This document shows positions 11,221-52,162 of a stretch of 64,000 nucleotides of DNA, one piece after another. Both the position numbers and the translations under genes were made by a program. Positions within the stretch are counted from its first letter, which is position 1. Each line of letters starts with the position of its first letter. The notes beneath the pieces were generated by a model. It was given only the letters and a program-made list of their open reading frames with translations. It was not told the DNA's origin and did no database searches. This DNA comes from Burkholderia sp. USMB20 (GTDB lineage Bacteria; Pseudomonadota; Gammaproteobacteria; Burkholderiales; Burkholderiaceae): assembly GCF_000949135.2 (NCBI RefSeq), contig NZ_JTAN02000018.1, positions 1 through 64,000 on the forward strand. The letters are read 5' to 3'.

Positions 11221-14660
<3,440 letters not shown>

Positions 14661-14665
14661 CTTGC

Positions 14666-14995
14666 TTACTGCGTGCTCTGCCCACTACCCGACATACCGC
14701 CGGACGAACTGCCCAGCTGCGTGCTCATCGACTCCGGAATCTTGTTCTTGAACGAATCGAGGTAGCGCTGGTAGACCAGCGACGCGACGTCGCCGAGCAT
14801 CGGCTGCACCGGTGCCGAAGCGCGGTTGTCCCGCTGGATCGAGAGCCATTGTTTCGTCGAATGGTCGACGTCGGATGCGGCCGGCGCTGTTGCGTCTTGC
14901 GCCTGTGCGGCTACGGCCCCCATCGCCATCGTCATGATCGTGCCCAGCACCACGATGCGGTGCGCAAACTCGTTTCGGTAATGTTTATTGTTCAT
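14666..14995 (-). CDS. DUF3613 small exported protein of the Tad operon
   Basis: 109 residues with a signal peptide (IVVLGTIMTMAMGAVAAQAQ) and a short mature part. The segment TKQWLSIQRDNRASA followed by LVYQRYLDSFK is the DUF3613 signature; members are found in Tad/Flp clusters of Burkholderia and relatives. The C-terminus is Ser/Gly-rich. Role unknown, presumably a periplasmic accessory of pilus assembly. ATG at 14995 follows GGGGGAA at the correct distance; an in-frame upstream ATG at 15019 overlaps tadD and is not preferred. It lies between tadD and tadG with near-zero spacing. Confidence 0.8.
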   Translation of the reverse strand: MNNKHYRNEFAHRIVVLGTIMTMAMGAVAAQAQDATAPAASDVDHSTKQWLSIQRDNRASAPVQPMLGDVASLVYQRYLDSFKNKIPESMSTQLGSSSGGMSGSGQSTQ

Positions 14996-15015
14996 GTCGT
15001 TCCCCCGCCTGTCGT

Positions 15016-15858: not shown

Positions 15859-15876
15859 CGTCTTTCCTTCCCCCCA

Positions 15877-16869: not shown

Positions 16870-16873
16870 CGCA

Positions 16874-17866
16874 TCACCTGAGTCGAGCCATTCGATACAA
16901 CCACACGCTCCCGGCAACCTGCATCAGGAACGCGAAAACGAGGAGCGTGCGCCCGTTCGGATCAATCCACATGCCTTCCAGATACTTCGGATTTGTCATC
17001 ACGACAAAACTGCCGATCGCGATCGGCAGCATCACGAGCACGAACGCGGACAGCCGCGTCTCCGCCGACATCGCCGTCAGTTCGCGCTCGGCCTGCTCGA
17101 GATCGCGCATGAACACAGCCATACGTTCGAGCATCACGTCCGCACGACCGCCATACTTGACCGACAGCCGCAGCACCGAGCCGAGCAGTTCGAATTCCTG
17201 CGTCCGGTATATCTTCGCGATATGGAGCATCGCGCGATCGATCTCGACACCTGTGCGCAACATCCGGGAGACGTGATCGAGACACCCCCGCAGCGGCTCC
17301 TCGGTCGTCAGCAGCGCTGCCTGAAATGCGGCCGGCACGCTGTTACCGAGCGTCACCAGTCGCACGATCCCGTCGAGAAACGACGGGATCTGCCGGACGA
17401 TCTTCAGTCGCCGACGCTGAATTCGCGAGGCGAGCCAGATGCCAAGAATCGCGCTTCCGCAGACGAGCGCCGCGAAACATGCGAGCGCGCCGCCGCGACT
17501 GCCCGCGATTGCCGCAATCGCGACGAGCGCGGTCAGTGCGCCGACCGCCTTGCCGCGCGCGCCTTCGATCCCGGCGCGGTTCACGAGGTTGGCCAAATAT
17601 TCCGCCGTCACCCCGTACCAGTGCGTCCAGAACGCATCCGACGACGCATTGCGTACGCCGCCGGATGAAGACACAGAGCGCGACGCAGCGGATGCCGCCG
17701 GTTTCGCGGCAGGTGCCGCCGCGCGCGCACCGGGCTCGAGCCGACTGTCGATGAAGCGCTTTGCATCGGTACGCACACGCCGGGTTTCCGCATGTCGCCA
17801 CAGCATCAATGCCGATGCCGCGCACAGCATCGCGACCGCGAGCACCCAGATCATCGCGCTATACAT
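16874..17866 (-). CDS. tadB: TadB inner-membrane platform protein
   Basis: 330 residues. An N-terminal helix (MIWVLAVAMLCAASALMLW) precedes a basic linker and a T2SSF domain: IPSFLDGIVRLVTLGNSVPAAF, then LLGSVLRLSVKYGGRADVMLERM, then two C-terminal helices. It pairs with TadC as the GspF-like platform. The ATG at 17866 overlaps the last 8 bp of tadA, a sign of translational coupling. An upstream in-frame extension would lie entirely within tadA's glycine-rich end and is rejected. Confidence 0.92.
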   Translation of the reverse strand: MYSAMIWVLAVAMLCAASALMLWRHAETRRVRTDAKRFIDSRLEPGARAAAPAAKPAASAASRSVSSSGGVRNASSDAFWTHWYGVTAEYLANLVNRAGIEGARGKAVGALTALVAIAAIAGSRGGALACFAALVCGSAILGIWLASRIQRRRLKIVRQIPSFLDGIVRLVTLGNSVPAAFQAALLTTEEPLRGCLDHVSRMLRTGVEIDRAMLHIAKIYRTQEFELLGSVLRLSVKYGGRADVMLERMAVFMRDLEQAERELTAMSAETRLSAFVLVMLPIAIGSFVVMTNPKYLEGMWIDPNGRTLLVFAFLMQVAGSVWLYRMARLR

Positions 17867-19214
17867 TGAAGCCCCCGCCGCGACCGAAGCCGCCGCCGCC
17901 GAACCCACCACCGCCCAGTCCGCTGTTCGTCAACGCCTGGCGAAAACGCGCGAGCTTCGGCGAATGCGGATGAATGCCCAGCGACTCCCAGTGATCGACT
18001 TCCTCGCCCTCCGGCGTGACGCGCGCTTCGTAGCGATACAGCTCCTGCGTCGCGATGATGTTGTCGGACAGCCCAGTCACCTCGGTGATCGACAGAATCC
18101 GGCGGCGCCCATTCGACAGGCGTCCGATCTGCACGATGAAGTCGATCGCGTTCGCGATCTGGCGACGCAGGCTCGATTCGGTTCCCTGGAAGCCCGCGAA
18201 GCCGGCGAGCATCTCGAGACGGTACAGGCACTCGCGCGGCGAACTCGCGTGCACGGTGCCCATCGAGCCGTCGTGGCCCGTGTTCATGGCCTGAAGCATT
18301 TCGAGCACTTCACCGCCGCGCACTTCGCCGACGATGATCCGGTCCGGACGCATCCGCAGCGTATTGCGCAACAGATCGCGAATCGTCACGACGCCACTAC
18401 CGTCGAACCCGCCCGGCCGGCTTTCGAGCCGCACGACGTGCGGATGGTTCAGCGACAGTTCCGCCGTATCCTCGATCGTCACGACACGCTCGGCCTCCGG
18501 AATGTGGAACGCGAGCGCATTGAGCAGCGACGTCTTGCCCGAGCTCGTGCCACCCGACACGAGCACGTTGCAGCGGGCCTCGACCGCCGCCTCGAGCAAT
18601 GCACCGATCTCTTCGTTGTACGTGCCGTTACCGAGCAGGTCCGAGGGCTTGAGCGGGTCCTTGCGGAATTTCCGGATCGACACGATCGGGCCGTCGATCG
18701 ACAGCGGCTCGATCACGACGTTCACGCGGCCGCCGTCGGGCAGTCGCGCGTCGACCATCGGGTTCGATTCATCGAGACGGCGCCCGATCGGCGCGAGGAT
18801 CCGGCGCACGATTCGCAGCAAATGCGCGTTGTCGGTGAAGCGCACCGGCAGCTTCGCTAGGATCCCGTGACGCGACACGTACACGTCGTTGTAGCCGTTG
18901 ATCAGGATGTCCTCGACCGCCGGATCCGCGAGCAGATCCTCGATCGGCCCGAAGCCCGCGAGTTCCTTCGTCAGCGCCTCGGCGATCGCACGCACCTCGT
19001 TCTCGTTGAGCGGAATGCGGCGCAGGCGCACGAAGCTGTCGATCTCGAGATCGACGAACTGATTGATCGCCTGGCGGGACCATCGGCCGAACTCGGCGCC
19101 CAGTTCCTCGATGCGCGTCAGCAAATGCTCGTGCGCGGCATTCTTGATGTCGTGGAATTGCTGCGTCTGGGAGAACGGCGCTGCGCCGTCGGCGAATTGA
19201 ATGTCGTGTGCCAT
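17859..19214 (-). CDS. tadA: TadA/CpaF pilus assembly ATPase
   Basis: 451 residues. A type II/IV secretion ATPase that powers Flp pilus assembly at the inner membrane. Walker A is GGTSSGKTS (221-229), the Asp box TIEDTAEL (246-253), Walker B RIIVGEVRGGE (292-302) and the His box HDGSMGTVHA (314-323). The N-terminal domain includes IEDLLADPAVEDILINGYNDV, typical of CpaF. The last 25 residues are a glycine/phenylalanine tail (GGGGFGGGGFGRGGG), unusual but harmless in location. It starts 3 bp after the tadZ stop and overlaps tadB. Confidence 0.95.
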   Translation of the reverse strand: MAHDIQFADGAAPFSQTQQFHDIKNAAHEHLLTRIEELGAEFGRWSRQAINQFVDLEIDSFVRLRRIPLNENEVRAIAEALTKELAGFGPIEDLLADPAVEDILINGYNDVYVSRHGILAKLPVRFTDNAHLLRIVRRILAPIGRRLDESNPMVDARLPDGGRVNVVIEPLSIDGPIVSIRKFRKDPLKPSDLLGNGTYNEEIGALLEAAVEARCNVLVSGGTSSGKTSLLNALAFHIPEAERVVTIEDTAELSLNHPHVVRLESRPGGFDGSGVVTIRDLLRNTLRMRPDRIIVGEVRGGEVLEMLQAMNTGHDGSMGTVHASSPRECLYRLEMLAGFAGFQGTESSLRRQIANAIDFIVQIGRLSNGRRRILSITEVTGLSDNIIATQELYRYEARVTPEGEEVDHWESLGIHPHSPKLARFRQALTNSGLGGGGFGGGGFGRGGGFNV

Positions 19215-19217
19215 CGG

Positions 19218-20492
19218 TTATGACCGCTTGGACGAGGGTTGAATGAAACGTTTGAGTGCGGACAGGCCGGGCGCCGCGCGCGACGCGCCCGCCATGCCAG
19301 ATACGCCGGGCAACCGCGTCGCGAGGGATTCGAGTGCGCGCACGTAAGGATCGCGCTCCGCCGCATCGACAACGAGCCGCCCCTGGTTCGCTGCGTGGCC
19401 AATCGCGACGCGACGCGCGGGCAAGGTGCCGACCAGCGCGACGCCAAGACGCTCCGCGATCTGTCCAGGCATCAGGTCCAGCGCGGGATCGTACTGGTTG
19501 ACCACAAGCTTCACACGGTCGGTATCGACGCCCGCATCGCGCAGTCCGGTAAGCAGATCGGCCGCCGACACGATCGATGCGACGCCCTGGTCGCACACGA
19601 GCCACGCCTCGTCGGCCGCTGCGGCGATCTGCGTGACGAACTCGCGATTCGAAAACCCGCCCAGATCCACGACCTGCTGGTCGAAGAACGCGCGAAAGCG
19701 GTTCAGCAAACCGATGCACGACGCATAGGACACGTCGCGCAACGCGCCGAGGTCCGGCGGCAGCGTCGTCAGCGCGACGCCGCTTTGGTGGCGCGTGAGC
19801 GCGGTGTTCACGAAAGTGCGATCGATGCGGCGCAGATTCTGCACGGCGTCGATGAAATGGAATTCGCAGCGCGTGTTCAGGAACAGCGCGCCGTCACCGG
19901 GCGGCAGCCCGAGATCGACCAGCGCGGTCTGGCGACCGGCCGGCGCGCCGCCGTCCGGGCCGCCAGCCGCACCGGGCCCGAGCGCGCGCTTTTGCAGCCA
20001 GACCGCGAGGTTCGCGGCGAGCGTGCTGACGCCCATGCCGGCACGTGCGCCGAGCAACGCGACGACCTTGCCGTGGCGGCTCGTCGGCTCGCCGACGTGG
20101 GACAGCAATCCGCGCGTCGTCCGCAGTGCATCCTCGGCCGACGCCGACACGTCGATGAAATCGCGCACGCCCGCGCGCAGTGCTGCGAGCGTGCTCTCCG
20201 GCTGGGCGAGCGAGCCCAGCGCGACAATCGGCAACCCCGGATGTGCCGCGCGTACCGCGGCCGCAGCGACGCTCGCTGCTTCGCTACGTTCGGAGAAATC
20301 GATGAACACGAGGGCCGGGTTGAGCCCCGTGATGCGCTGACCAAGCACGCCCGGCTCCAGCGACGCGGCCTCGACCGCACCGGCCGACACCAGCGTATCG
20401 GCCAGCCAGCGCACATGCGCTTCCTTTGTCGATGCGCAAACGAAGTAGTCGGTCACGGCGGGTTCACACAACGATTGGGTTCGTGCATTCAT
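19218..20492 (-). CDS. tadZ: TadZ/CpaE pilus localisation protein with degenerate P-loop
   Basis: 424 residues. Residues 15-135 form a receiver-like domain and 140-400 a ParA/MinD-like ATPase domain, the TadZ/CpaE architecture that places the Tad machine in the cell. The nucleotide loop reads GARAGMGVST (148-157). Relative to KGGxGKT of ParA, the signature lysine is Arg and the invariant lysine is Val, so ATP hydrolysis is doubtful, in line with the divergent loops known in this family. The later DLGGFSNREFV aligns with the ParA Walker B region. ATG at 20492 is preceded by GAGGG at 9 bp; a GTG 9 bp earlier is possible. Confidence 0.88.
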   Translation of the reverse strand: MNARTQSLCEPAVTDYFVCASTKEAHVRWLADTLVSAGAVEAASLEPGVLGQRITGLNPALVFIDFSERSEAASVAAAAVRAAHPGLPIVALGSLAQPESTLAALRAGVRDFIDVSASAEDALRTTRGLLSHVGEPTSRHGKVVALLGARAGMGVSTLAANLAVWLQKRALGPGAAGGPDGGAPAGRQTALVDLGLPPGDGALFLNTRCEFHFIDAVQNLRRIDRTFVNTALTRHQSGVALTTLPPDLGALRDVSYASCIGLLNRFRAFFDQQVVDLGGFSNREFVTQIAAAADEAWLVCDQGVASIVSAADLLTGLRDAGVDTDRVKLVVNQYDPALDLMPGQIAERLGVALVGTLPARRVAIGHAANQGRLVVDAAERDPYVRALESLATRLPGVSGMAGASRAAPGLSALKRFIQPSSKRS

Positions 20493-20552
20493 GTCGAACA
20501 CCCTCGATTACGCAAGGCGTAGCGGTGTGCCACGACGCGCAATGCCTCAAAT

Positions 20553-21884
20553 TCATTTCGAAAACCCCGGTGCCGCATCCGGCGATGCCGCACCGCCCAG
20601 GTAGGATCGCCATACCGGCCCGTCGCGCTGCTCGGACAATTCGCCGGGCGTCGCAGGCAGCACCGCCCCCTTCGCAATCGGTGCGACGAGATGCGGTGTC
20701 ACGATGATCAGCAATTCCTTGTCGTTCTGCTGGTAGTTCAGGTTCTTGAAGAACGTACCGATGATCGGCAGGTCACCGAGCAGCGGCACCTTGCTCACGT
20801 TCGACAGTGTCTGGCGGTCGATCAGGCCGCCGATCACGAAGCTCTCGCCGTCGCCGAGTTCGATCGTCGTATCGGCGCGGCGCGTCGTGATGCCCGGCAC
20901 GGCGACACCGCTGATCGTCACGCTGTTCACGAAATCGAGCTGGCTCGATTCCGGCGCGACCTTCAGCGCGATCCGGCTTGGGCTCAGCACCGTCGGAGTC
21001 AGCGACAGTCCCACACCGTATTGTTTCCACTGGATCGCTGTCGAGCCGAGCCCCTGCGGCGACGGCACCGGGATCTCGCCGCCCGCGAGGAAGCTGGCGC
21101 TCTGGCCGGACAGCGCGACGAGCGTCGGCTCCGCGAGCACGCGCGCCAGATTGTTCGCTTCGAGCAACGACAGGTCGGCGAAGATGCCGCGGCCTGCTGC
21201 ATTCACGACCAGGTTGAATGCAGACGCAACCGGTGCGCCGAGCGTCGGAATATACCCGGCCGTACCCGGGCCCGACGCGCCGTTATACGACTGCACGCCG
21301 CCCGGCGAAAACGAGCCGAACGAAAAGCCGTTGCTCTGCTTGAAGAAGTTGAAGCCGACCTGCTTGAGCACCGAGCGGCTGAATTCCACCACCCGCACGT
21401 CGACCTGCACGACATTCTTGCCGGCCAGCGTCGAACGATCGATCACCGTGCCCTTCGGGCTCATGTTCTTGGCGACCGCCACGGCACGTTCGTGTGCATC
21501 AAGCGATGCCGACGTTCCCCGCAGCACCGACGTCCCGCCGTATGCCTTCACCTGCGGCGTCGAACCGTCGAGCACCGCTTGCGCAGCAGCATCGACGACT
21601 TCGACACTCCACACCGTCGGCTCGTCGTGACCGCGCTCCCACAACATCACGTTCGTTGTACCCGGCGCTTTCGCGGTCAGCAGCACGGAACCGGTACGAC
21701 TGCCCTTCATGATCAACACGTCGGCGATCGCGGGATCGCCGACTGCGACACGCTGCAGCGCACGACCTGCAGAAATCTGCCGCTGCGCGCCGACCGCGAG
21801 TTCAATCGTGCCGCTCGCGCTTGCAGTGGATGCGAATGTCAAGGTCCAGAGAGCAATCGCGAATGCAGTCAGTATGTTTTTCAT
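20553..21884 (-). CDS. rcpA: RcpA/CpaC outer-membrane secretin of the Flp pilus
   Basis: 443 residues. A Sec signal peptide (ILTAFAIALWTLTFASTASA) precedes an N-terminal domain (GAQRQISAGRALQRVAVGDPAIADV) typical of the CpaC secretin N-domain. Residues 160-410 form the secretin domain, with VQVDVRVVEFSRSVLKQVGF, LAEPTLVALSGQSASFLAGGE and IELGDGESFVIGGLIDRQ followed by PLLGDLPIIGTFFK, the standard secretin end. It forms the ring through which the Flp pilus crosses the outer membrane. ATG at 21884 is chosen by the signal peptide; 25 upstream codons overlap the intergenic space. Confidence 0.93.
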   Translation of the reverse strand: MKNILTAFAIALWTLTFASTASASGTIELAVGAQRQISAGRALQRVAVGDPAIADVLIMKGSRTGSVLLTAKAPGTTNVMLWERGHDEPTVWSVEVVDAAAQAVLDGSTPQVKAYGGTSVLRGTSASLDAHERAVAVAKNMSPKGTVIDRSTLAGKNVVQVDVRVVEFSRSVLKQVGFNFFKQSNGFSFGSFSPGGVQSYNGASGPGTAGYIPTLGAPVASAFNLVVNAAGRGIFADLSLLEANNLARVLAEPTLVALSGQSASFLAGGEIPVPSPQGLGSTAIQWKQYGVGLSLTPTVLSPSRIALKVAPESSQLDFVNSVTISGVAVPGITTRRADTTIELGDGESFVIGGLIDRQTLSNVSKVPLLGDLPIIGTFFKNLNYQQNDKELLIIVTPHLVAPIAKGAVLPATPGELSEQRDGPVWRSYLGGAASPDAAPGFSK

Positions 21885-21948
21885 TGTTTGTTGGGCCGTC
21901 GCACGGCCTTTACTTGTCGTCGCAGATATCGATGGCCACCGATGTTGT

Positions 21949-22887
21949 TCAATATGCAACCGTTTCCGAGCGGCCGCCGCGGATCAGCTCGATGCCGCCG
22001 CCGCCGCTACCGCCTCCGACGGATCGCCCTGCCGGCGGCAAGCGCGATGGCAGCGGCGGCACATTTACGTTGGCCACCGCAGTCCTCGACGTACCGGACA
22101 GCTGTTGCAGCGATACGCCGACCGCGGCAAGCGCCGAGGGCGACAACTTGTTGTCCGTACGCACCGCCACCGTCTGCATCGCAAGCTCGTCGTCGCGCGG
22201 ATTGCGCAGTGCGAGCGTCAGCCGACCGCTCGCCTCGCCGAGCGTGAGTGCATCGACCTGCGCCGTCGGCACCGCGAGCACCGCGATGCGCGTATTGCTC
22301 GGCTGGCCGTTATTGCCGTTCGTGTTGCTGCCGCTGTCGCGCTCCGGCGTCGCGTCGCCGAACGACAGCACGCGCACCTTCGACATCAGGAGCCGCGCTT
22401 GTGTCTGCGAGACTTCGCCGTCGAGCATCCCGCTGCCCGCCTCACGCTTCAGGTTCACGAAGACGTCGACGAAGTTGCCGGGCCGCAGGCGATTGCCGAC
22501 CGCATTGGTCTCGTCGACACGAACCGCAATCGCGCGCTCGCCCGGCTGCACGTCCTCGGCAAGCCCCGACACCAGTGCGTCCGCCACAACCGGTGCCGAC
22601 GCCGGGATGTCTCTCACCGGAACGCGACCGACCAGGGCGGCCGGATCGGAAAACGCACCTGCCGGCGCAGGAGCAACTGGTTGAACCTTCAACGCATCGG
22701 CGGCAATCGGCTGCCCCATCGGCAGCGCGCGCGTCGCGATAACCACTGACACCGGGCTCGCAGCGACAGCCTGTTGCACGGGGATGGGACTAGGCGTACT
22801 GCGTCCAAGCATCCAAGCGTAGATTCCAAGCAGAACAGCGATCGCAATCAGCAACCCCGCGATGATTTTTGTCAGATTGTTGGCCAT
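21949..22887 (-). CDS. rcpC: RcpC/CpaB Flp pilus assembly protein
   Basis: 312 residues. A single N-terminal membrane helix (KIIAGLLIAIAVLLGIYAWML) is followed by a SAF domain (VVIATRALPMGQPIAADALK, residues 49-68) and the RcpC/CpaB domain with NRLRPGNFVDVFV. CpaB proteins work in the periplasm next to the secretin. The last 40 residues are Gly/Pro-rich. It precedes rcpA in the operon. Confidence 0.92.
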   Translation of the reverse strand: MANNLTKIIAGLLIAIAVLLGIYAWMLGRSTPSPIPVQQAVAASPVSVVIATRALPMGQPIAADALKVQPVAPAPAGAFSDPAALVGRVPVRDIPASAPVVADALVSGLAEDVQPGERAIAVRVDETNAVGNRLRPGNFVDVFVNLKREAGSGMLDGEVSQTQARLLMSKVRVLSFGDATPERDSGSNTNGNNGQPSNTRIAVLAVPTAQVDALTLGEASGRLTLALRNPRDDELAMQTVAVRTDNKLSPSALAAVGVSLQQLSGTSRTAVANVNVPPLPSRLPPAGRSVGGGSGGGGIELIRGGRSETVAY

Positions 22888-22962
22888 GTTGATATGGGAA
22901 TGCCGGAACCAGGTTCAGGAGCGTGATGACGATCGGGCGACTCGATTAAATAGGATTGCGAT

Positions 22963-23466
22963 TCAGAGCATGCTTGGCTGAACTTGCACGGTCGCACTAC
23001 TCTGCAGCTGCGGCGCAGTGAACAGGAATATCCACGGGATCAGCGGATTCGCCGCGTATGAATAGGTCGTTGTCACCATCACGTTGAATGCGGCGGTGGA
23101 CGTCGATGTGAATGTCCCGCCGCAGGTCACGCCGGGCGTCGACGTGGGCGACGGTACCGAAGTGGACACCTGCGCGGCGAAACTGACGTTCTTCGACCAC
23201 GGTGCGCCGCCCAACGCTTGCGTCACGGCGTTTCGCGCATTGACCTGCAGGCGGTCGCACGGCGCCGACGTGTAGTTCAACGCAGCGCGCGCGCCTTCGG
23301 ATGCCGCGAATGTCAGGCTTTGCTGGATGATAAAAACCATCCCGAACGTAACGATCGCGTAAAAGATCAAGAAGAACAACGGAAATACGAATGCGAACTC
23401 GATCGCTGCCACTCCCCGTTGCCGCCGCCACGCGGGCGACTGGCGCGCTTGCGCCCACCGAGCCAT
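22963..23466 (-). CDS. tadE: TadE pseudopilin
   Basis: 167 residues. A basic leader ends in RQRGVAAIEFAFVFPLFFLIFY, matching the TadE pseudopilin signature: a glycine, a glutamate five residues later and a hydrophobic helix. The prepilin peptidase encoded just before it presumably cleaves after Gly18. The remainder is a periplasmic domain with a Ser/Thr-rich centre. Its ATG overlaps the tadV stop by one base (TGATG), a coupled pair. Confidence 0.9.
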   Translation of the reverse strand: MARWAQARQSPAWRRQRGVAAIEFAFVFPLFFLIFYAIVTFGMVFIIQQSLTFAASEGARAALNYTSAPCDRLQVNARNAVTQALGGAPWSKNVSFAAQVSTSVPSPTSTPGVTCGGTFTSTSTAAFNVMVTTTYSYAANPLIPWIFLFTAPQLQSSATVQVQPSML

Positions 23467-23963
23467 CACACTCCCCTCACATGCATAAAATGCAGAAGCC
23501 ACACAGCAGCGGGTATCACAAGAAACGCTGCATAAGGCGTCGCTCGACGGCCACCGAGTGCCATCGCTGGCGTACTCCGTTTGCACAGCATGGCAATCGA
23601 AGTCCGTGACAGCACCATTAGCCAGAGCGCGTGGAGACCCGCAGCGATGCTCGCGATAATCCAGAACCACGGCAACGCCTGCACGCCACACCACGCACCA
23701 AGCACGCCGAATACCTTGACGTCTGCAGCACCCATTACACGTAACGCGAAGAGGGGAGAAAAGCAGACAACGCCCACCGACGCACCGGCCAGTGACTGAA
23801 GCGCCGTAACCCCGAACGGATTTCCACCGATGACCGCGCCGACCAATGCGCCTGCCAAACCCGCAATAACGAGTGAATTCGGAATACGCCGACACCGAAT
23901 ATCAGCGGTTCCGACAAGCGTCGCCCAAGCGAGGAAGATCCCGCCGCACAAAAGATGCGCCAT
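23466..23963 (-). CDS. tadV: TadV/CpaA prepilin peptidase
   Basis: 165 residues, all of it in five or six membrane helices, the size of the small A24-type aspartic peptidases of Tad loci. The two catalytic aspartates are visible: Asp21 in TADIRCRRIPN and Asp81 in GAADVK, the GxGD-type site. It cleaves and may methylate Flp, TadE and TadG leaders. The gene lies between flp and tadE. Confidence 0.93.
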   Translation of the reverse strand: MAHLLCGGIFLAWATLVGTADIRCRRIPNSLVIAGLAGALVGAVIGGNPFGVTALQSLAGASVGVVCFSPLFALRVMGAADVKVFGVLGAWCGVQALPWFWIIASIAAGLHALWLMVLSRTSIAMLCKRSTPAMALGGRRATPYAAFLVIPAAVWLLHFMHVRGV

Positions 23964-24042: not shown

Positions 24043-24231
24043 TCAACTGGCCTTACAGGTAGCAGGCGTTGTCACGCAACTGGAGATAGTGGAGAACATG
24101 GTTCCAAGATTCGAACCGATCGTCGAAACGCTCGCGATGATTGCCACCGCAATCAGACCCGCAATCAGCCCATACTCGATCGCGGTAACCCCGTCTTCTT
24201 CCTTGAGGAAGCGCTTGATGAGTGCTTTCAT
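24043..24231 (-). CDS. flp: Flp major pilin
   Basis: 62 residues. After a basic leader (KALIKRFLKEEDG) the peptidase site Gly14 is followed by VTAIEYGLIAGLIAVAIIASVS. Glu19-Tyr20 and the hydrophobic helix are the hallmark of Flp-type pilins. Cleavage gives a mature pilin of about 48 residues. Two cysteines near the C-terminus (CVTTPATC) could form a disulfide. Its ATG follows GAGGAATT at the right distance. First gene of the pilus operon; the region upstream is shared with the divergent lipoprotein operon. Confidence 0.95.
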   Translation of the reverse strand: MKALIKRFLKEEDGVTAIEYGLIAGLIAVAIIASVSTIGSNLGTMFSTISSCVTTPATCKAS

Positions 24232-24658: not shown

Positions 24659-24702
24659 CGTTACGCCGCACGCGTAACGCCAATGTTGTGACGTTACGTT
24701 AC
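24659..24702. promoter_or_regulatory. Candidate upstream activating sequence for the sigma-54 activator
   Basis: CGTTACG (24659-24665), seven bases, then CGTAACG (24673-24679) form an exact inverted repeat. TTGTGACGTTACGTTAC follows at 24686-24702. The last element is found again, with one base changed, at 61784-61800 above the other sigma-54 promoter. Its distance of about 130 bp to the promoter is normal for sigma-54 enhancers. Binding protein inferred, not shown. Confidence 0.5.
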
Positions 24703-24832
24703 GAAACGGCCGAAACCGTTCTCATTCGACCGTTCTTAAACAGATTCAACAATCTTTCAGTTTGCCTAAATCCCTTTTCCGACAAGGAATTGCCCCGTTT
24801 AAAACCAATCGTCGAACCGTCGGCCATCGAAA

Positions 24833-24848
24833 TGGCACGACAGTTGCA
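24833..24848 (+). promoter_or_regulatory. Sigma-54 promoter, full consensus
   Basis: TGGCACGACAGTTGCA matches TGGCACG-N4-TTGCA at every fixed position, with GG at 24834-24835 and GC at 24846-24847. Transcription should start near 24859, about 40 bp before the lipoprotein ATG. It points away from flp, toward the lipoprotein/TpsB genes. Confidence 0.88.
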
Positions 24849-24899
24849 GAGTAATCCCCGCATCACTCAACACAACATCAGCTTCAATGCGAGGACGAA

Positions 24900-26578
24900 A
24901 TGGACATTAAGGTTATCCCTCATGGCACGCTCCGGACGACTATGATCGCGGCCACCGTGGCAGCCATGCTTTCCCTCTCCGCGTGCGGCGGCTCCGGTTC
25001 CATCAGCAAGGGGCTCAGCGGCGGCTCCAGCTCGGGCGGTGGCGACTCCGTCTCGACGTCGGGTGGCGGCACCTCGGGCGGCACGTCCGGTTCGACGAGC
25101 GGCAGCACGTCGGGCGGCACCAGTGGCTCGACCAGTGGCAGCACGAGCGGCTCGACGAGCGGCAGCACCAGCGGCACGACGAGCGGAACGTCCAGCGGAA
25201 CGAGCGGCACCTCCGGTGTGTCGTCGAACGCAGTGGGTCAGGTCCTCGCAAGCGGCAGCAATCTCGTCACCAATCTCGGTGGCACCGTGTCAAACCTCGG
25301 CGGCGTCGTCGCCGGCCAGTCGTTGCCCGGCGTCAACCCGGCCACGACGCAAGCGGCGGGCGGCATCATCCAGAACGTCGGCGGCGCGGTCACTGCACTC
25401 GGCAATGGCCTCGGCAACGGCCTCGGCCAGCTCGGCGCAACGAAAGACCCGGTCGGCGTCACGGTCGCCAGCACCGGCGGCGTGGTGAACCAGCTCGGCG
25501 GCGCAGTCACGCAGACCGGCAACCTGGTCACGAGCCTCGGCAGCGGCCCGTTGTCGCCACTCGCTCCCGTCACCGGCGCCGTCGGCGGCCTCGTGACGCA
25601 GGTCGGCAACGCGGTTTCGAACGGCGGCACCACGCTGTCCAACGTGCTGTCGACCGGCCCGATCCAGCAGGTCACGCAGACGGTCAGCTCGGCGATCACG
25701 CCGATCACGACGATGGTCGGTCAGACGACGCAGACGATCGGGACGGCCACCGGCCTCGGCGCCCCTGTCAACACGCTGCTCGGCACGATCGGCAACGGCC
25801 TGAACCAGGCCGGCGCGGTGATTGCGTCGACGGGCGGCAATCCCGTCACGACCGGCCTCGGCAGCACTGTCTCGTCGACCGGCAATACCGTGAAGGCCGT
25901 CGGCGGCCTGCTCACGGGCGCCACCGGCGGCGCGACCAACCCGCTCGCGCCGCTCACGGGCCTGCTCACGACCGTCACCGGCACGCTCGGCGGCGCAACG
26001 GGCGGTACGAGCGGCGGCCCGCTCGCTCCGGTCACCGGCCTCGTCTCCACCGTCACCGGCACACTCGGTGGCGCAGCCGGCGGTACGAGCGGCGGCCCGC
26101 TCGCTCCGGTCACCGGCCTCGTCTCCACCGTCACCGGCGCACTCGGCGGCGCAGCCGGCGGTACGAGCGGGCGCCCGCTCGCTCCAGTCACCGGCCTCGT
26201 CTCCACCGTCACCGGTGCACTCGCGGCGCCAACGGGTGGCACGAGCGGCGGTCCGCTCGCTCCGGTCACCGGCCTCGTCTCCACCGTCACCGGCGCGCTC
26301 GGCGGCGCAACGGGCGGCACGAGCGGCGGTCCGCTCGCTCCGGTCACCGGCCTCGTCTCCACCGTCACCGGCGCGCTCGGCGGCGCAACGGGCGGCGCGG
26401 GCGGCAGCACCCGCTCGCTCCCGTGACGGGCGTCGTGTCCGCGGTCACCAGCACGGTCGGTGCCCCGGCACTGAGCGGCAGCACCGGCACGGTCACGAAT
26501 TCGGGCTCGGGCTCGAACCCGCTCGCGCCTGTCACGTCGCTGCTCGGCGGCCTGCTCGGCGGCACGCACGGCAAGTAA
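24900..26578 (+). CDS. Repeat-rich lipoprotein A, C-terminus frameshifted
   Basis: A signal peptide ends MLSLSAC, a lipobox (Cys29), so the product is lipid-anchored. Residues 35-110 are a Ser/Gly/Thr array with four-residue period (xTSG). Residues 110-345 are Gly/Ala/Val/Thr-rich with repeated G-N-x-V and STGG-like phrases. From residue 348 a 26-residue unit (PLAPVTGLVSTVTG plus GGATGGTSGG) recurs six times in 78-bp steps. The open frame stops at 26426. One base missing near 26406-26410 explains this, because the next frame continues NPLAPVTGVVSAVTS and ends NPLAPVTSLLGGLLGGTHGK at 26578, as in the paralog. Intact length would be 559. Function unknown; likely surface or periplasmic. First gene of the sigma-54 operon. 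Confidence 0.85.
25941..26408 (+). repeat. Six 78-bp tandem repeats within lipoprotein A
   Basis: Units start at 25941, 26019, 26097, 26175, 26253 and 26331, each encoding PLAPVTGLVSTVTG and a Gly-rich linker; a partial seventh follows the frameshift. Near-identical DNA means the copy number could change by slippage or recombination. Confidence 0.9.
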
Positions 26579-26618
26579 TCGAACATCCATTCATCGACAA
26601 GACAGCGAGGAGTCCATC

Positions 26619-27968
26619 ATGTCCCAGCAACGTTCCATCACGACGGCCGCCCTGCGCCAATGGCGCGCGCCCCTCACCGCTTTCGCCGCAGCGTGCCTGC
26701 TGGCCGCCTGCGGCGGCAACAGCGTCAGCACGCCGCCGACGAGCAGCAATGCCGGCAGCAGCAGCGGCACGAGCGGCACCAGTGGTACGAGCGGCACCAG
26801 CGGCTCGTCCACCGGCACCAAGGGCGCTGTCAGCACGATCGGCCAGACGGCAACCGACCTCGGCAGCACGGTCGGCAACATCAGCGTGCCCGGCCTCGGC
26901 GACGGCGTGACGAAGGGTGTCGGCAGCACCGTCTCGAGCACCGGCACGATCATCAACGCGGCTGCCGATGCGTTGAGCAACGGGCTGGGACAGACCGGCT
27001 CGATCAAGGATCCCGTCGGCACGACGGTCGCCGGCCTCGGGAACGTCGTGGGCGCGACGAGCAACACCGTGTCCGGGCTGAGTTCGACGGTCAAGGCGCT
27101 CGGCACGGGTCAGCTCGCGCCGCTCGCCCCTGTCACGACGCCGGTCGGAACCGTGCTCGACACGGTTGCCAACGGCCTCTCGGCAGCCGGCACGACGATC
27201 GGTTCGACGCTGTCGTCGGGTGCCGTGCAGCAGGTTACGCAACCGCTCAGCTCGGCGATCACGCCGCTGGTGATCACCGCAGGCCAGGTCACGCAACAGG
27301 TCGGCACGACCACCGGCCTCGGGCAGCCCGTGTCGGGCCTGCTCGGTCAGGTCGGCGGTGCAATCAGCTCGGCGGGCACGAAGGTCGCAAGCACGTCTAA
27401 CCAGCCGCTCGTCGGCGACGTCGGCCAGCTCGTCACCGCGGTCGGCAACACCGTGACCAACGCGGGCGGCCTCGTGAACCCGAACGGTCCGAACGGCGCG
27501 GCACCGATCCCCGGCCTGCTCACCAGCCTCGTCGGCGGCTCGACGGCTACGGTCCAGAACGGCACGTCGTCGGGTTCCGGCTCGACGAACCCGCTCGGCG
27601 GCCTGCTGTCCGGCCTCGGTTCGACGCCGCTCGGTTCGCTCACGGGTGCGGTCGGCGGCGCAACGGGCAGCTCGGGCAGCAATCCGCTCGCGCCCGTCAC
27701 GGGCCTCGTGTCGACGGTCACGGGCACGCTGGGCGGCGCAACGGGTGGTGCAGGCGGGGCAAACCCTCTCGCGCCCGTCACCGGTTTGCTGAATACTGTC
27801 ACCGGAACAGTCGGCGGTGCAGCGGGAACCGGGGGTTCGTCGAGCCCGCTCGCACCAGTCACGTCGCTGGTCGGCAGCGTGACGGGTGCGGCATCGTCGG
27901 GCAGTTCGACGGGTCTGCTGGCACCGGTCACGGGGCTGCTGGGCACGCTGGGTAGCGTCGGCAAGTAA
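26619..27968 (+). CDS. Repeat-rich lipoprotein B, paralog of A
   Basis: 449 residues. Signal peptide with lipobox LLAAC (Cys31). A short GTSGTSG stretch (45-65) replaces the long array of A; the central part repeats the same phrases as A in the same order (GLGQTGSIKDPVGTTVAGLG against GLGQLGATKDPVGVTVASTG, and QQVTQPLSSAITPLV against QQVTQTVSSAITPIT). The C-terminal PLAPVTG units are fewer and more divergent, ending PLAPVTSLVGSVTG and LLAPVTGLLGTLGSVGK. So A and B arose by duplication. No TPS (haemagglutination) domain, collagen triplets or known adhesin domain is seen. ATG follows CGAGGAG. It starts 40 bp after A and precedes the TpsB-like gene. Confidence 0.85.
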   Translation: MSQQRSITTAALRQWRAPLTAFAAACLLAACGGNSVSTPPTSSNAGSSSGTSGTSGTSGTSGSSTGTKGAVSTIGQTATDLGSTVGNISVPGLGDGVTKGVGSTVSSTGTIINAAADALSNGLGQTGSIKDPVGTTVAGLGNVVGATSNTVSGLSSTVKALGTGQLAPLAPVTTPVGTVLDTVANGLSAAGTTIGSTLSSGAVQQVTQPLSSAITPLVITAGQVTQQVGTTTGLGQPVSGLLGQVGGAISSAGTKVASTSNQPLVGDVGQLVTAVGNTVTNAGGLVNPNGPNGAAPIPGLLTSLVGGSTATVQNGTSSGSGSTNPLGGLLSGLGSTPLGSLTGAVGGATGSSGSNPLAPVTGLVSTVTGTLGGATGGAGGANPLAPVTGLLNTVTGTVGGAAGTGGSSSPLAPVTSLVGSVTGAASSGSSTGLLAPVTGLLGTLGSVGK

Positions 27969-28036
27969 GGAGGACGATCGCGCCTTGCAGCGGAGCACGA
28001 GGCGCGGCCGTACCAATACAACCGGCAATGCGGCAC

Positions 28037-28067
28037 GCGGGCGCGACACCCTGGTGTCCGCGCCCGC
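28037..28067. other. Intercistronic hairpin between lipoprotein B and the TpsB-like gene
   Basis: GCGGGCGCGACACC pairs with GGTGTCCGCGCCCGC with one bulged base and a two-base gap. No T-run follows, so it is more likely a partial stop, processing or stability element that lowers expression of the outer-membrane protein relative to the lipoproteins. Confidence 0.55.
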
Positions 28068-28108
28068 ATTAGAAAGAAGACGAAAGCAAGGCCTACGAGG
28101 AAGAAACA

Positions 28109-29794
28109 ATGAAATCCAGACTCGACAGATGGATGATGCTGCTCGCTATCGCGGCAGCAGGCACGGCACATGCACAAACGCGCGCGGCTGGTAACCCGCT
28201 TGATTCCCTCCCCCAGATCAACGCACCGCAGAAAGGCCCGAGCGTCACCGTGCAGGTCGCGCCGCAGGCACCGCAACTGCAGGAACTGCTGTCGCGGCAC
28301 CTGACGCCGACGACGTTCCAGGTGGAAGGCGTGAAGTCGGTGCCGTTCGACGAAATCTCGCGTCGCTTCACGCCCCTCGTCGGCAAGGACATCACGATCG
28401 GCGAGCTGATCGAAACCGCCAACGGCGTGACCAAGCTGTACCAGGATCGCGGCTATGCGCTGTCGTTCGCGTTCATTCCCGCGCAGACGTTCGAGAACGG
28501 CGTCGTGCGCGTCACGGTCGTCGAAGGCTATGTGTCGGACGTCAAGGTGACCGGCAAGCCCGGCGCGATGGAATCGAAGATCCGCGCGATCGCCGCGCAC
28601 ATCACGGCCGATCGCCCGCTGCGCCGCGCGACGTTCGAACGCTACGTGAACACGTTCGGCCTCCTGCCCGGCGTGTCGGTGAAGGCCAACGTGCCACCGC
28701 CGCAGACGACCGACGGCGCAACGACGCTCGAACTGGCCGTCGACCGCAAGGCATTCAACATCAGCACCGGCATCGATTTCAATCACCCGGGCGTGCAGGG
28801 GCTCATCACCGCAACGGAGAACGGCCTCACGTCGTTCGGCGAGCAATTGAGCATTTCCGCGCTGGTGCCGCCCGGACGCGACAAGCAGACCTACGTCGCA
28901 TTCAGCGGCGCCGTGCCGGTCGGCAGCAGCGGCCTGGTCACGCGCCTCGACGCCAGCACGTATCGCGGCAAGCCGACCGACAACCCGGGCCTGCCGTCGA
29001 CCGTCGAGCGCACCGTCAAGAACGAGAAGCTCGGTCTTTCGGCATCCTATCCGTTGCTGCTGAACAACCAGCGCAGCCTGCTCGGCACCGTGTCGGGCTA
29101 TGCGTCGCACAACGAAGACCGCTACCAGAACAAGATCAGCGGCAACAGCATCGATACACGCTCGCAGGTCCGCGTGCTGCAGATGCAGCTCGACTATACG
29201 AGCGTATCGGCCAAGCAGGTACAGAAGCTGAGCGTGAACGTCGCGAAGGGCTTCAACATTCTCGGCGCGTCGAAATCGCAGGACATCACGATCGGCTCGA
29301 ACACGACGTCGGTGGACAGCCCGATCTCGCTGACGTTCGTGCGCACCGGCGCGACCTTCACGCAAACCAATGAATGGCCGTTCAAGATCGGCACGTCGGT
29401 CTCGCTGACCGGCCAGTACAGCCCCGACTCGCTGCCGACGTCGGAGCAGATCTCGTTCGGTTCGACGCGCTATGCGCTCGGCTACCAGCCCGGCGAAACG
29501 TCGGGCGACTCGGGCTGGGGGATGTCGCTGGAGGTCAACCGCGGATTCACGCCGGGCTGGACGTACATGAAATCGATCACGCCGTACATCGCGTACGACA
29601 TGGCGCGCGTGTACCTGCATACCGGCACGCCGTCGCCGAGCCGCCTGTCGTCGGTCGGTATCGGCGTGCGGTTTACCGACAGCCGCTACTACAGTCTCGA
29701 TCTGAATATCGCGAAGCCGGTCGGCGATGCACCGGTTGAAAGCGCATCGCGCAGCCCGCGCGTGAATGCCGCGTTCTCGTATCAGCTCAACTGA
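28109..29794 (+). CDS. TpsB-like (ShlB/FhaC/HecB family) outer-membrane transporter
   Basis: 561 residues. Signal peptide (residues 1-22, ending AHA-Q). Residues 65-145 form a POTRA domain: TPTTFQVEGVKSVPFDEI, then ITIGELIETANGVTKLYQDRGY and VRVTVVEGYVSDVKV. Residues 200-561 form the 16-strand barrel and end in an aromatic-poor strand YQLN. TpsB proteins export one partner protein across the outer membrane. The inward loop motif that normally reads VRGY/F appears as ALGY (456-459): Leu457 takes the place of the invariant arginine, while the following GDSGWG is kept. No TpsA partner is nearby, only lipoproteins A and B. The ATG follows GAGGAAG. Third gene of the sigma-54 operon. Confidence 0.88.
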   Translation: MKSRLDRWMMLLAIAAAGTAHAQTRAAGNPLDSLPQINAPQKGPSVTVQVAPQAPQLQELLSRHLTPTTFQVEGVKSVPFDEISRRFTPLVGKDITIGELIETANGVTKLYQDRGYALSFAFIPAQTFENGVVRVTVVEGYVSDVKVTGKPGAMESKIRAIAAHITADRPLRRATFERYVNTFGLLPGVSVKANVPPPQTTDGATTLELAVDRKAFNISTGIDFNHPGVQGLITATENGLTSFGEQLSISALVPPGRDKQTYVAFSGAVPVGSSGLVTRLDASTYRGKPTDNPGLPSTVERTVKNEKLGLSASYPLLLNNQRSLLGTVSGYASHNEDRYQNKISGNSIDTRSQVRVLQMQLDYTSVSAKQVQKLSVNVAKGFNILGASKSQDITIGSNTTSVDSPISLTFVRTGATFTQTNEWPFKIGTSVSLTGQYSPDSLPTSEQISFGSTRYALGYQPGETSGDSGWGMSLEVNRGFTPGWTYMKSITPYIAYDMARVYLHTGTPSPSRLSSVGIGVRFTDSRYYSLDLNIAKPVGDAPVESASRSPRVNAAFSYQLN

Positions 29795-29960: not shown

Positions 29961-30422
29961 ATGATTCAACTGACCCGCCCGTTGCGCGCACTGGCCATCG
30001 CGAGTGCCCTGCTCGCTTGCGCCGCCCCCACCTTCGCCCAGGCCGACAGCCCCGTCGGGATGTGGCAGACGATCGACGACAACACGCATCAGCCGAAGGC
30101 GCTCGTGCAGATCGCCGACGACGGCGAAGGCTCGCTGTCGGGCAAGGTCGTCAAGGGCCTCGGCGCCAATGACACGCCCGATCGCCGCTGCACCGCATGC
30201 ACGGACGAGCGCAAGGATCAGCTCATCAAGGGCATGACGATCATCAAGGCGATGAAGAAGGACGGCGATCACTGGGACGGCGGCAACATTCTCGACCCGG
30301 AGAACGGCAAGGTCTACAAGTGCAAGATGTCGCTCGAAGACGGCGGCCAGAAGCTCGTCGTGCGCGGCTATATCGGCGTATCGCTGCTCGGCCGGTCGCA
30401 GACCTGGGTTCGCGCACAATGA
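29961..30422 (+). CDS. DUF2147 periplasmic protein
   Basis: 153 residues. Signal peptide (LALASALLACAAPTFAQA-like, residues 1-28) and a mature beta-rich domain with SPVGMWQTIDDNTHQPKALV at its start and LVVRGYIGVSLLGRSQTW at its end, the DUF2147 pattern. Two cysteines in CTACTDER and a third in VYKCKMS are present. Function of the family is unknown; it resembles small lipocalin-like folds. AAGGAGGAAG precedes the ATG. It has its own terminator downstream and starts 166 bp after the TpsB-like gene, so it is likely a separate unit. Confidence 0.85.
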   Translation: MIQLTRPLRALAIASALLACAAPTFAQADSPVGMWQTIDDNTHQPKALVQIADDGEGSLSGKVVKGLGANDTPDRRCTACTDERKDQLIKGMTIIKAMKKDGDHWDGGNILDPENGKVYKCKMSLEDGGQKLVVRGYIGVSLLGRSQTWVRAQ

Positions 30423-52157: not shown

Positions 52158-52162
52158 CCGCG

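Follow-up and report, generated by a model that had tools for sequence, protein, structure and literature searches.

Our analysis points to a surface-adhesin locus of Burkholderia in which an operon for two Collagen_mid lipoproteins (CLPs) and a TpsB-like outer-membrane protein, divergent from a Tad/Flp pilus operon, carries a predicted sigma-54 promoter preceded by GTTACG/CGTAAC half-sites that are very probably bound by GtrR, the activator encoded at the end of the Tad operon. A second promoter of the same kind lies 37 kb away from the CLP operon, in front of a predicted small RNA. The explanation that links these elements, a GtrR-controlled export unit for surface adhesins with a small-RNA feed-forward loop, is the one that we favour, with fair rather than high confidence; the candidate promoters and half-sites, their conservation, their association with the activator, and the structure and complementarity of the RNA can be read from the sequences themselves. 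The genes of the locus are already known: clp1-clp2-tpsB, the Tad operon and the activator match by orthology B. cenocepacia BCAL1520-1537, and the activator is GtrR. The window, i.e. the whole stretch of DNA that was analysed, consists of 64,000 nt of Burkholderia sp. USMB20 (contig NZ_JTAN02000018.1, positions 1-64,000, forward strand; Table 1). Statements on published work refer to the portions of each paper that were available.

Table 1. Features of the locus and of the proposed second target, in window coordinates.
Feature	Position	Strand	Basis
DUF2968 gene after the activator	10459..11166	-	Pfam
Sigma-54 activator (GtrR ortholog), 463 aa	11221..12612	-	Pfam, orthologs
cpaA, tadE, cpaB, cpaC, cpaE, cpaF, tadB, tadC, tadD, DUF3613, tadG	12624..23963	-	Pfam
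flp pilin, first gene of the divergent Tad operon	24043..24231	-	Pfam
Palindrome CGTTACGC-N5-GCGTAACG, proposed activator site 1	24659..24679		sequence
Two further GTTACG half-sites, proposed activator site 2	24693..24703		sequence
Predicted sigma-54 promoter (-24/-12) of clp1-clp2-tpsB, exactly TGGCACGACAGTTGCA	24833..24848	+	consensus scan, conservation
clp1, Collagen_mid lipoprotein, BCAL1524 ortholog	24900..26426	+	Pfam
clp2, Collagen_mid lipoprotein, BCAL1523 ortholog	26619..27968	+	Pfam
tpsB, TpsB-like outer-membrane protein, BCAL1522 ortholog	28109..29794	+	Pfam, model
DUF2147 gene (BCAL1520-like), possible last operon gene	29961..30422	+	Pfam, putative operon (PMC2753556, available part)
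Predicted small RNA, ~210 nt, three hairpins, near-invariant loop UAUCCUCGUA, terminator	61456..61665	-	conservation
Sigma-54 site TGGCACGCAAACTGCT, 1 mismatch, second target	61676..61691	-	sequence
Three GTTACG half-sites, second target	61770..61793		sequence

Results

The Tad/Flp gene set includes the pilin, prepilin peptidase, TadE, RcpC, secretin, TadZ, T2SSE ATPase and two T2SSF proteins (Pfam Flp_Fap, Peptidase_A24, TadE, RcpC, Secretin, TadZ_N, T2SSE and T2SSF twice); the name tadG is our assumption, from its position. A first, sequence-only reading of this DNA had placed a sigma-54 activator at the end of the operon, and the protein encoded there does combine Sigma54_activat (208.9 bits) with HTH_8 (43.1 bits), a C-terminal Fis-type helix-turn-helix, and has Walker A and B motifs and a GAFTGA-type loop in its AAA+ domain (19-residue stretch read). 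A 14-residue stretch of the helix-turn-helix does not vary among the orthologs listed, the most distant of which has 56% overall identity. No close paralog was found in Burkholderia, nothing else scoring above 198.1 bits in four genomes.

The same reading had proposed a full-consensus sigma-54 promoter leading into clp1, clp2 and tpsB, which our scan bears out. The site has the GG and GC dinucleotides 10 bp apart and is the sole match to TGGCAYRN4TTGCW in 64 kb, where shuffling gives a mean of 0.04 and 4 of 100 shuffles contain one. Sites with up to two mismatches are at chance level (11 in the window versus 11.8 expected), and therefore only the full match is informative. Sigma-54 promoters start about 12 bp after the GC, and by this spacing rule we take transcription to begin near 24859. 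The promoter is kept with at most one mismatch in 59 of the 62 loci with flp, and 68 of the 71 named loci have a sigma-54 site together with at least two hexamers; these 71, taken from 80 for having 5 kb or more of sequence before tpsB, partly overlap the 76-locus set described below.

The hexamers in question, GTTACG/CGTAAC, lie 130-174 bp upstream of the 24833 site, and the pattern CGTTACG-N7-CGTAACG has one zero-mismatch fit in the whole window. Between -320 and -60, they occur in 60/60 scorable loci, at least twice in 59, with a mean of 3.62 per locus against a background of 0.053 from the rest of each locus. These 60 come from the 62 flp-bearing loci, minus one without a site (L063) and one whose site misses the last letter of the pattern (L067); L050 and L070-L082, with no flp in the piece, were unscored. 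Hexamers accompany none of 39 distinct other sigma-54-like sites from 7 Burkholderia genomes, a control that includes 20 of 30 non-CLP sites (10 of G111 being left out) and 6 of 17 others of G103; one G012 site belongs to both sets, and several of the sites are orthologs of one another in different genomes. The stricter pattern TGGCAYRN4TTGCA is enriched (38 matches versus 16 for the reversed control in 8 genomes) and the looser one is not (16 in G012 versus 32 reversed), so that chance, rather than promoter function, may account for many of the 39 control sites. Within G012, exactly 2 of 16 TGGCAYRN4YTGCW sites have hexamers, namely those of the CLP operon and of the small RNA. The palindrome was rejected as a genome-wide marker (CGTTACGN{3,9}CGTAAC, 76 matches in 20 genomes versus 85 for the reversed control); it is its position that is telling, not its abundance. 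A second activator, 61% identical and with the same helix, is encoded in genome G115, and its contig carries three clusters of hexamers, of which two lie upstream of sigma-54 sites. We consider binding of the half-sites by GtrR to be very probable.

Full or split TpsB orthologs were found in 76/150 genomes, all 76 with the activator, which is present in 77 genomes in total; the remaining one, G007, keeps the activator without TpsB. A divergent flp adjoins tpsB in 61 of the 76 loci. The operon goes with this Tad lineage and its activator, and the co-occurrence envisaged by the sequence-only reading holds, the genes not being mostly away from tad. In 13 genomes of genus g11, TpsB is kept with no Tad genes within 18 kb, and in the three of them examined the CLP genes stay beside Tad, with a sigma-54 site and hexamers, apart from tpsB. 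Upstream of the lone tpsB of these 13 genomes there is no consistent sigma-54 site, and tpsB therefore need not be under the activator. A genome without the activator (G125) has a 109-residue TpsB fragment with a stop.

Both lipoproteins match Collagen_mid (225 and 217.6 bits, cut-off 31.1), their lipobox cysteine is invariant in 35/35 aligned CLPs, and Pfam detects no TPS domain in them. The clp1 frame stops at 26426, the family C-terminus being encoded in another frame to 26578, and it continues to this C-terminus in 17/17 relatives compared (L031-L047); the early stop is either a real mutation or a sequencing error in a 78-bp tandem repeat. The clp2 model, of low confidence (mean pLDDT 59.4), has helices at 64-286 with disordered flanks and no PDB fold match at E <= 0.001. 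CLP genes are also present beyond this locus. The DUF2147 gene, close after tpsB, may be a fourth member of the operon.

The TpsB-like protein carries POTRA_2 (71.7 bits, cut-off 24) and ShlB (72.6 bits, cut-off 22.7) domains. Its model (pLDDT 74.9, pTM 0.69) has two POTRA-like domains and a barrel in an FhaC-like fold, with CdiB and FhaC as best PDB matches (TM by query 0.55-0.67). TpsB proteins typically have an arginine in a VRG(Y/F) motif of loop L6. The window protein has RYALGY at L6, without this arginine, aligned with VRGY of FhaC (R450A in 3njt), and the residue is replaced in 75/76 readable sequences checked by eye, that of the window among them, the truncated TpsB of L082 being left out and L056 alone having arginine. 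A Pfam search of the operon's own genes found no TpsA partner with a TPS domain.

TpsB could export the CLPs, a reading to which we give slightly less than even chances. Alternatively, its substrate may be another, unlinked exoprotein, with the CLPs reaching the outer membrane by the Lol route alone, an explanation of real weight: the CLPs have lipoboxes and no TPS domain, tpsB is apart from Tad in the 13 g11 genomes and from the CLP genes in the three examined, and there are CLP genes beyond the locus. It fits less well with the presence of the activator in every genome with a TpsB ortholog, with the lack of a TpsA among the operon's own genes, or with the Gly/Ser/Thr-rich ORF, picked by composition, that precedes tpsB on the same strand in 62/62 flp-bearing loci.

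The predicted small RNA of the second target is unannotated. Of 51 genomes with a match to it, 50 were examined for its promoter (G091 was left out), and hexamers with a sigma-54 site are found upstream in 33 of 35 activator-bearing genomes versus 1 of 15 others. The exceptions are G031 and G062, with the activator but no promoter, and G052, the reverse; in G038, also without the activator, five hexamers are present and a sigma-54 site is lacking. Within genus g10 the promoter occurs in 2/4 genomes with the activator versus 0/10 without (p 0.07). In the predicted structure, 9/26 base pairs show changes on both sides. Each of 43 genomes has one copy of the core pattern, and genomes that lack the activator retain the RNA core as well, behind a different upstream sequence. 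The RNA was undetected in activator-bearing relatives of g24, g3 and g11. No Rfam family reaches its gathering score at this place of the window, the only matches being sub-threshold: RF02278 (24.2-27.1 bits, gathering 50) and RF02837 anti-hemB (32.1-33.3 bits, gathering 49.5), each in the loci of 3/3 relatives. Nor is it among the 15 sRNAs in Table 1 of PMC5688073, none of which lies near 1.65 Mb of J2315 chromosome 1, a position estimated from the place of BCAL1525 and the 37-kb spacing. Transcription of the RNA from the sigma-54 promoter is probable.

As a partner of the RNA loop, clp1, tpsB, clp2 and flp rank 1-4 of 37 gene starts, which were hand-chosen and are in part probably wrong; one of the sources of this choice, a set of gene picks, lacks flp, clp1 and clp2. 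The loop looks like any common anti-Shine-Dalgarno sequence. G012 contains 123 matches to ACGAGGA-N4-9-ATG, the 7-nt partner of the loop, and such pairing is therefore not peculiar to the locus. We suggest only tentatively that the RNA pairs with these four messages in cells. These 123 matches, and the persistence of the RNA core without the activator, would suit an ordinary sigma-54 adhesin operon under its local activator, with an unrelated housekeeping RNA and no circuit. This seems unlikely to us given how closely the upstream elements of the RNA track the activator (33/35 versus 1/15) and the ranking of the four locus genes at the top of the 37 starts.

The sequence-only reading had also put pilus and lipoproteins under one activator. 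The CLP-TpsB side of this claim is upheld by the conserved sigma-54 site and its tracking of the activator; joint control of the pilus is partly supported by the sequences. A sigma-54 promoter for flp was rejected in the window, where the flp-clp1 gap contains no minus-strand site within two mismatches, and none with intact GG and GC was found in this gap in 15 Burkholderia relatives (L031-L045). In 23/23 loci of another group (L083-L105), however, joint control is supported: a second, divergent sigma-54 site with at most one mismatch points into a further Gly/Ser/Thr-rich gene that lies upstream of flp, and this gene has a Collagen_mid match in 3/3 genomes searched (G146, G025, G145). That the activator mainly controls the pilus, through a direct sigma-54 link in all species and with CLP-TpsB as a by-product, is improbable: these Tad-side sites and the retention of Tad and activator without TpsB in G007 would agree with it, but the window and the 15 relatives have no flp-side site, and G007 has no sigma-54 site in the surrounding 20 kb and only single scattered hexamers upstream of flp.

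Discussion

In the model that we propose, GtrR would bind the half-sites at 24659-24703 and drive sigma-54 RNA polymerase at 24833 into clp1-clp2-tpsB and probably the DUF2147 gene. The CLPs would be made as lipoproteins, with TpsB as the most likely carrier to the cell face, where they would promote cell-cell contact beside the pilus. Through the same type of half-site GtrR would also drive the small RNA; by its loop, complementary to the Shine-Dalgarno stretches of clp1, tpsB, clp2 and flp, the RNA may limit or time translation of the GtrR-activated genes, in an incoherent feed-forward loop that would reach the pilin too. If true, an adhesion locus that was known but unexplained would become a testable control circuit, the small RNA would join the quorum-sensing and c-di-GMP pathway, and the wiring would explain the joint change of CLP and Flp pilus genes in published transcriptomes. 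BDSF and c-di-GMP would then set pilus and adhesin output, via RpfR-GtrR, by a feed-forward loop of transcription plus RNA, and a TpsB without the usual loop arginine would carry surface lipoproteins rather than TpsA proteins; such an export route is a proposal that arises from this locus. We rather doubt the most complete version, with GtrR as a dedicated sigma-54 activator of two direct targets instead of mainly a global regulator, feedback by the RNA, output set by BDSF and c-di-GMP, and TpsB as a lipoprotein transporter.

Two studies outside the scope of our literature search, Lardi 2015 on the sigma-54 regulon of H111 and Yang 2017 on GtrR, may bear on these promoters. The sequence-only reading knew of no named system with this combination of genes; publications in fact exist on the locus, on the lipoprotein family and on the activator, while the literature search found no report of the promoter-enhancer link and, supplementary sRNA lists being outside its scope, no earlier description of the small RNA in the available parts. 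The half-sites and the two sigma-54 promoters offer a candidate DNA site for the much-studied GtrR/RpfR/BDSF system, for which the available parts of the literature covered give none. Besides the papers cited elsewhere, the search covered PMC5295037, PMC12838280, PMC10117139 and PMC4371752 in part, and PMC10175445, PMC4603805 and PMC5979394, which held no match for the terms sought.

The window has the same genes, order and divergent layout as B. cenocepacia BCAL1520-1524 and BCAL1525-1537, described as two putative operons (PMC2753556), the former containing Bcc-CLPs with Collagen_mid (PMC10224339); no sigma-54 promoter, enhancer or small RNA is mentioned for it in the available parts of these accounts. 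In cepR mutants several genes from both operons are down, with BCAL1520 in the table for the CLP side (PMC2753556), and the flp genes and BCAL1520, 1523 and 1524 are up on contact with host membranes (PMC7970998). Outer membrane vesicles contain BCAL1524, and autoaggregation is reduced when it is lost (PMC10303873).

GtrR (BCAL1536) has 463 aa like the window activator, and a cloning primer (PMC8174753) encodes the same C-terminus, by eye. It is described as the partner of the BDSF/c-di-GMP receptor RpfR and as a global regulator acting on other promoters, whereas for the window ortholog the sequences support two sigma-54 promoters as targets, both with the same type of half-site. The published bclACB fragment (506 bp by its gel-shift primers, B. 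cenocepacia NCTC13227) was rejected as a half-site target: it contains no GTTACG hexamer, no sigma-54 site within three mismatches and one with four, and GtrR therefore has a second mode of action or its effects there are indirect. BerB-RpoN-berA of B. cenocepacia is likewise a c-di-GMP-linked, RpfR-tied sigma-54 activator system for a biofilm component (PMC5552954, PMC9684580), but its target is exopolysaccharide via berA, and its activator appears to be a different one: the other activators of four Burkholderia genomes score at most 198 bits, BerB not being singled out among them. The betaproteobacterial double-hairpin sRNAs (RF02278) and the anti-hemB RNAs (RF02837) share with the window RNA a hairpin, a terminator and a CU-rich loop that can mask ribosome sites (PMC5688073), and the window RNA differs by its sub-gathering scores, its extra 5' hairpin, and its upstream sigma-54 site and half-sites.

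The window TpsB has the ShlB and POTRA_2 domains, the two POTRA-like domains and the barrel in common with two-partner TpsB proteins (FhaC, CdiB, ShlB), but is encoded with lipoproteins and no TpsA in the operon, and its loop arginine is replaced. The Qrr RNAs of Vibrio are small RNAs driven by a sigma-54 activator, under LuxO-sigma-54. Their likeness to the window RNA would be one of working only, with no homology claimed, and the latter differs in being single-copy, in the family of its activator and in its likely targets.

Sigma-54 promoter and half-sites of the CLP operon

The sequence TGGCACGACAGTTGCA is the sole match to TGGCAYRN4TTGCW in the 64-kb window (0.04 expected), and on its 3' side lie the genes of two lipoproteins with the Pfam Collagen_mid domain (the CLPs, clp1 and clp2) and of a protein with POTRA_2 and ShlB domains (tpsB). 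The sequence-only reading of a full-consensus sigma-54 site leading into lipoprotein and TpsB-like genes is thus borne out, and Pfam domain matches agree with its placing of a Tad operon, ending in a sigma-54 activator gene, on the opposite side of the gap. Since a scan allowing two mismatches finds sigma-54 sites in the window at chance level, the weight rests on the full match and its conservation: a site with at most one mismatch is present in 59 of the 62 loci that carry the divergent pilin gene flp, among 76 TpsB loci (bits >450) fetched from 150 genomes of the family.

A perfect palindrome, CGTTACGC-N5-GCGTAACG, lies 174 bp before the -24 element and is followed by two further GTTACG/CGTAAC half-sites, the hexamers that we propose as activator sites. 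Scoring was possible between -320 and -60 in 60 of the 62 flp-bearing loci; all 60 have at least one hexamer and 59 at least two, with a mean of 3.62 per locus versus 0.053 expected from the remainder of each locus. Named Burkholderia, Paraburkholderia and Caballeronia loci number 80, of which 71 include 5 kb before tpsB; flp is divergent in 68, the same 68 have the sigma-54 site and at least two hexamers, and the other three have no flp in the fetched piece. Paraburkholderia xenovorans LB400, a laboratory relative that is not a pathogen, also carries the locus (L207). Hexamers are absent from other sigma-54 sites (0/20 full-consensus and 0/20 near-consensus, 39 distinct). The strict sigma-54 pattern outnumbers its reversed control (38 versus 16, eight genomes), but the looser one is no commoner than its control (16 versus 32 in genome G012), so many of these comparison sites may be chance matches and the hexamer-free controls are weaker than they appear. 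The hexamer palindrome shows no genome-wide enrichment (76 versus 85 for the reversed control, 20 genomes); what is conserved is therefore its place. A 14-residue helix-turn-helix stretch of the activator is identical in every listed ortholog, from 99% down to 56% overall identity.

The flp-clp1 gap holds a second conserved palindrome, within a block that 15 Burkholderia relatives largely share; this palindrome may be the site of another flp regulator. A second activator in genome G115 is 61% identical and has the same DNA-recognition helix; its contig (C15, L143-L145) bears three clusters of hexamers. Two of these are followed by sigma-54 sites, and one such site faces a gene resembling, by eye, a sugar-nucleotide enzyme. 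The surrounding genes have, again by eye, the look of sugar-polymer synthesis, and the whole is possibly a sister regulon.

Features of the window and their coordinates
Feature	Position	Strand	Remark
Three GTTACG hexamers	9605-9683		
h2cR sRNA	9652-9788	-	RF02369
Activator gene	11221-12612	-	last in Tad operon
Conserved block in flp-clp1 gap	around 24570-24625		
Second palindrome, TTAGATGTG-CACACCTAA	24592-24609		one mismatch
Hexamer palindrome	24659-24679		exact
Sigma-54 site of CLP operon	24833-24848	+	full match
Tandem repeat in clp1	25940-26460		78 bp, 6.7 copies
sucA motif	38073-38155	-	Rfam match
Bp1_162 sRNA	52079-52175	+	Rfam match
Predicted small RNA	~61665 to 61456	-	
Sigma-54 site of small RNA	61691-61676	-	one mismatch
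Second hexamer cluster	61770-61793		

A predicted small RNA as a probable second target

GTTACG occurs 25 times in the window versus 15.7 expected, and a second cluster lies 79-102 bp before a sigma-54 site that has one mismatch. The ORF at this place has no Pfam match; the predicted transcript has a folding energy of -105.9 kcal/mol over 215 nt (z -2.6) and terminates in a strong terminator. Its DNA is matched in 51 of the 150 genomes, outside Burkholderia mostly in the 3' part, and it is single-copy in each of 43 core-pattern genomes. Across 44 sequences it forms three hairpins, with both-sided changes in at least one sequence at 9 of 26 pairs, and the middle hairpin, with the loop UAUCCUCGUA, hardly varies.

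We defined the small-RNA promoter as a sigma-54 site with up to two mismatches that has one or more hexamers 40-220 bp before it. Among the 50 genomes examined out of these 51, it is present in 33 of the 35 that have the activator and in 1 of the 15 that lack it (Fisher p 2e-9, uncorrected for kinship). Within genus g10 the figures are 2/4 versus 0/10 (p 0.07). The exceptions are G031, G062 and G052; in G038 hexamers precede the small RNA and the sigma-54 site is absent. Only 2 of the 16 TGGCAYRN4YTGCW sites of G012 have hexamers, and these are the sites of the CLP operon and the small RNA.

The h2cR sRNA of the window precedes a gene resembling, by eye, a second Hfq, and the three hexamers beside it have no sigma-54 site within two mismatches nearby.

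The reverse complement of the loop is TACGAGGATA, and the Shine-Dalgarno regions read CUACGAGGAA (tpsB), CACGAGGAA (flp) and GCGAGGA (clp1 and clp2). By loop duplex energy, these four rank best among 37 gene starts of the window (-11.9 to -11.3 kcal/mol), followed by cpaE (-10.8 kcal/mol); random ranks would give exactly this top four once in 66,045, for a gene list and some starts that we chose ourselves. In loci L031-L067 (minus L050), from genera with the small RNA, CGAGG was seen by eye before flp in 32/36 and before clp1 in 30/36, versus 0/26 in L068, L069 and L083-L106, a contrast that may reflect mere kinship. The 123 matches to ACGAGGA-N4-9-ATG in G012, where the reversed pattern has 7, count against target specificity; two of those listed are flp and tpsB, and another (C1:2417968) is followed, some 290 bp further on, by the Collagen_mid domain of a CLP that is not linked to the locus (C1:2418270). 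It is plausible that the activator and the small RNA would form an incoherent feed-forward loop on flp, clp1, clp2 and tpsB.

Association with one Tad lineage

TpsB orthologs (bits >450; G069 and G138 count by their split copies) occur in 76 of the 150 genomes and activator orthologs (E <= 1e-100) in 77, 76 of them shared. Genomic linkage accounts for much of this co-occurrence. G125, which lacks the activator, retains a 109-residue TpsB fragment, 62% identical and with a stop (C3:103571-103891), which may be a trace of joint loss; G007 has the activator and Tad without TpsB. CpaF splits into two Tad lineages, both present in many genomes of the family. The lineage scoring above 640 bits (75 genomes) nearly coincides with the activator, so the module marks one Tad lineage; its exceptions are G007 and G037, both without TpsB, G037 also without the activator. 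In 27 further genomes every CpaF relative (E <= 1e-60) lies outside this lineage; 24 of these have neither activator nor TpsB, and the three with both (G062, G070, G118) are fragmented assemblies.

That the three genes go with tad loci, as first proposed, holds for 68 of the 71 named loci. Linkage does not account for all of the co-occurrence, since 13 genomes of genus g11 keep TpsB with no Tad gene within 18 kb of it. In the three examined (G110, G102, G073), CLPs, hexamers, sigma-54 site, Tad and activator lie together elsewhere than tpsB. Two things count against a tie beyond linkage: the lone tpsB genes of g11 have no consistent sigma-54 site before them, and G007 lacks TpsB.

The proposal that one activator governs both pilus and lipoprotein module fares unevenly. 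No sigma-54 site reads toward flp in the gap of the window or of 15 Burkholderia relatives; in the window, the tie between pilus and CLP operon is the place of the activator gene inside the Tad operon. In all 23 loci L083-L105, a second, oppositely directed site reads into a further gene rich in Gly, Ser and Thr that precedes flp (Collagen_mid in the three genomes searched), which makes direct sigma-54 control of the pilus side plausible in that group.

Possible CLP export and known counterparts

The window TpsB, encoded at 28109-29794, has the domains and predicted fold of TpsB proteins and is 98-99% identical to that of B. ambifaria and strains Bp9142/Bp9143; the operon has no TpsA. From operon structure and co-occurrence, our best guess, held with slightly less than even confidence, is that TpsB carries the CLPs to the cell surface, and both the lone tpsB of g11 and the presence of CLP genes outside the locus counsel caution. 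The window clp1 frame stops early, which may be a true frameshift or an error of the assembly, and the number of its PLAPVTG units varies among relatives.

The window genes are counterparts of B. cenocepacia BCAL1520-1524 and BCAL1525-1537 (PMC10224339, PMC2753556), the two lipoproteins are the published Bcc-CLPs (PMC10224339), and the activator is identified as GtrR by its 463 residues and a C-terminus that agrees, by eye, with the one encoded by the published cloning primer (PMC8174753). The parts list is therefore already known. BCAL1524 is described as present in outer membrane vesicles and as favouring autoaggregation; a strain that has lost it is weaker in wax-moth larvae (PMC10303873). 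The flp genes and BCAL1520, 1523 and 1524 are reported to go up when the bacteria meet host membrane vesicles (PMC7970998), several genes of both operons are down in cepR mutants, the tabulated CLP-side gene being BCAL1520 (PMC2753556), and GtrR reportedly acts with RpfR under BDSF and c-di-GMP (PMC12838280). The bclACB promoter fragment of the published GtrR gel shifts (L267, B. cenocepacia NCTC13227) has neither a hexamer nor a sigma-54 site within three mismatches. A solved structure (PDB 7vbs, 7vbw) is near-identical to the window activator over its full length; our literature search found no paper describing it.

The earlier statement that no named system has this combination is not upheld for the genes and the activator, which are in print. 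Our search found no description of the small RNA or of the link between promoter and enhancer, which earlier studies outside that search could contain. The residue aligned with the L6 arginine of the FhaC VRGY motif is, by eye, not Arg in 75 of 76 readable TpsB sequences, the window's included (mostly L or Q; Arg only in L056), and the published FhaC R450A structure (3njt) carries its change at the same place. With genes and activator already known, what we judge to be new is the proposed sigma-54 circuit dedicated to this Tad-linked adhesin locus, with the small RNA as one of its parts.
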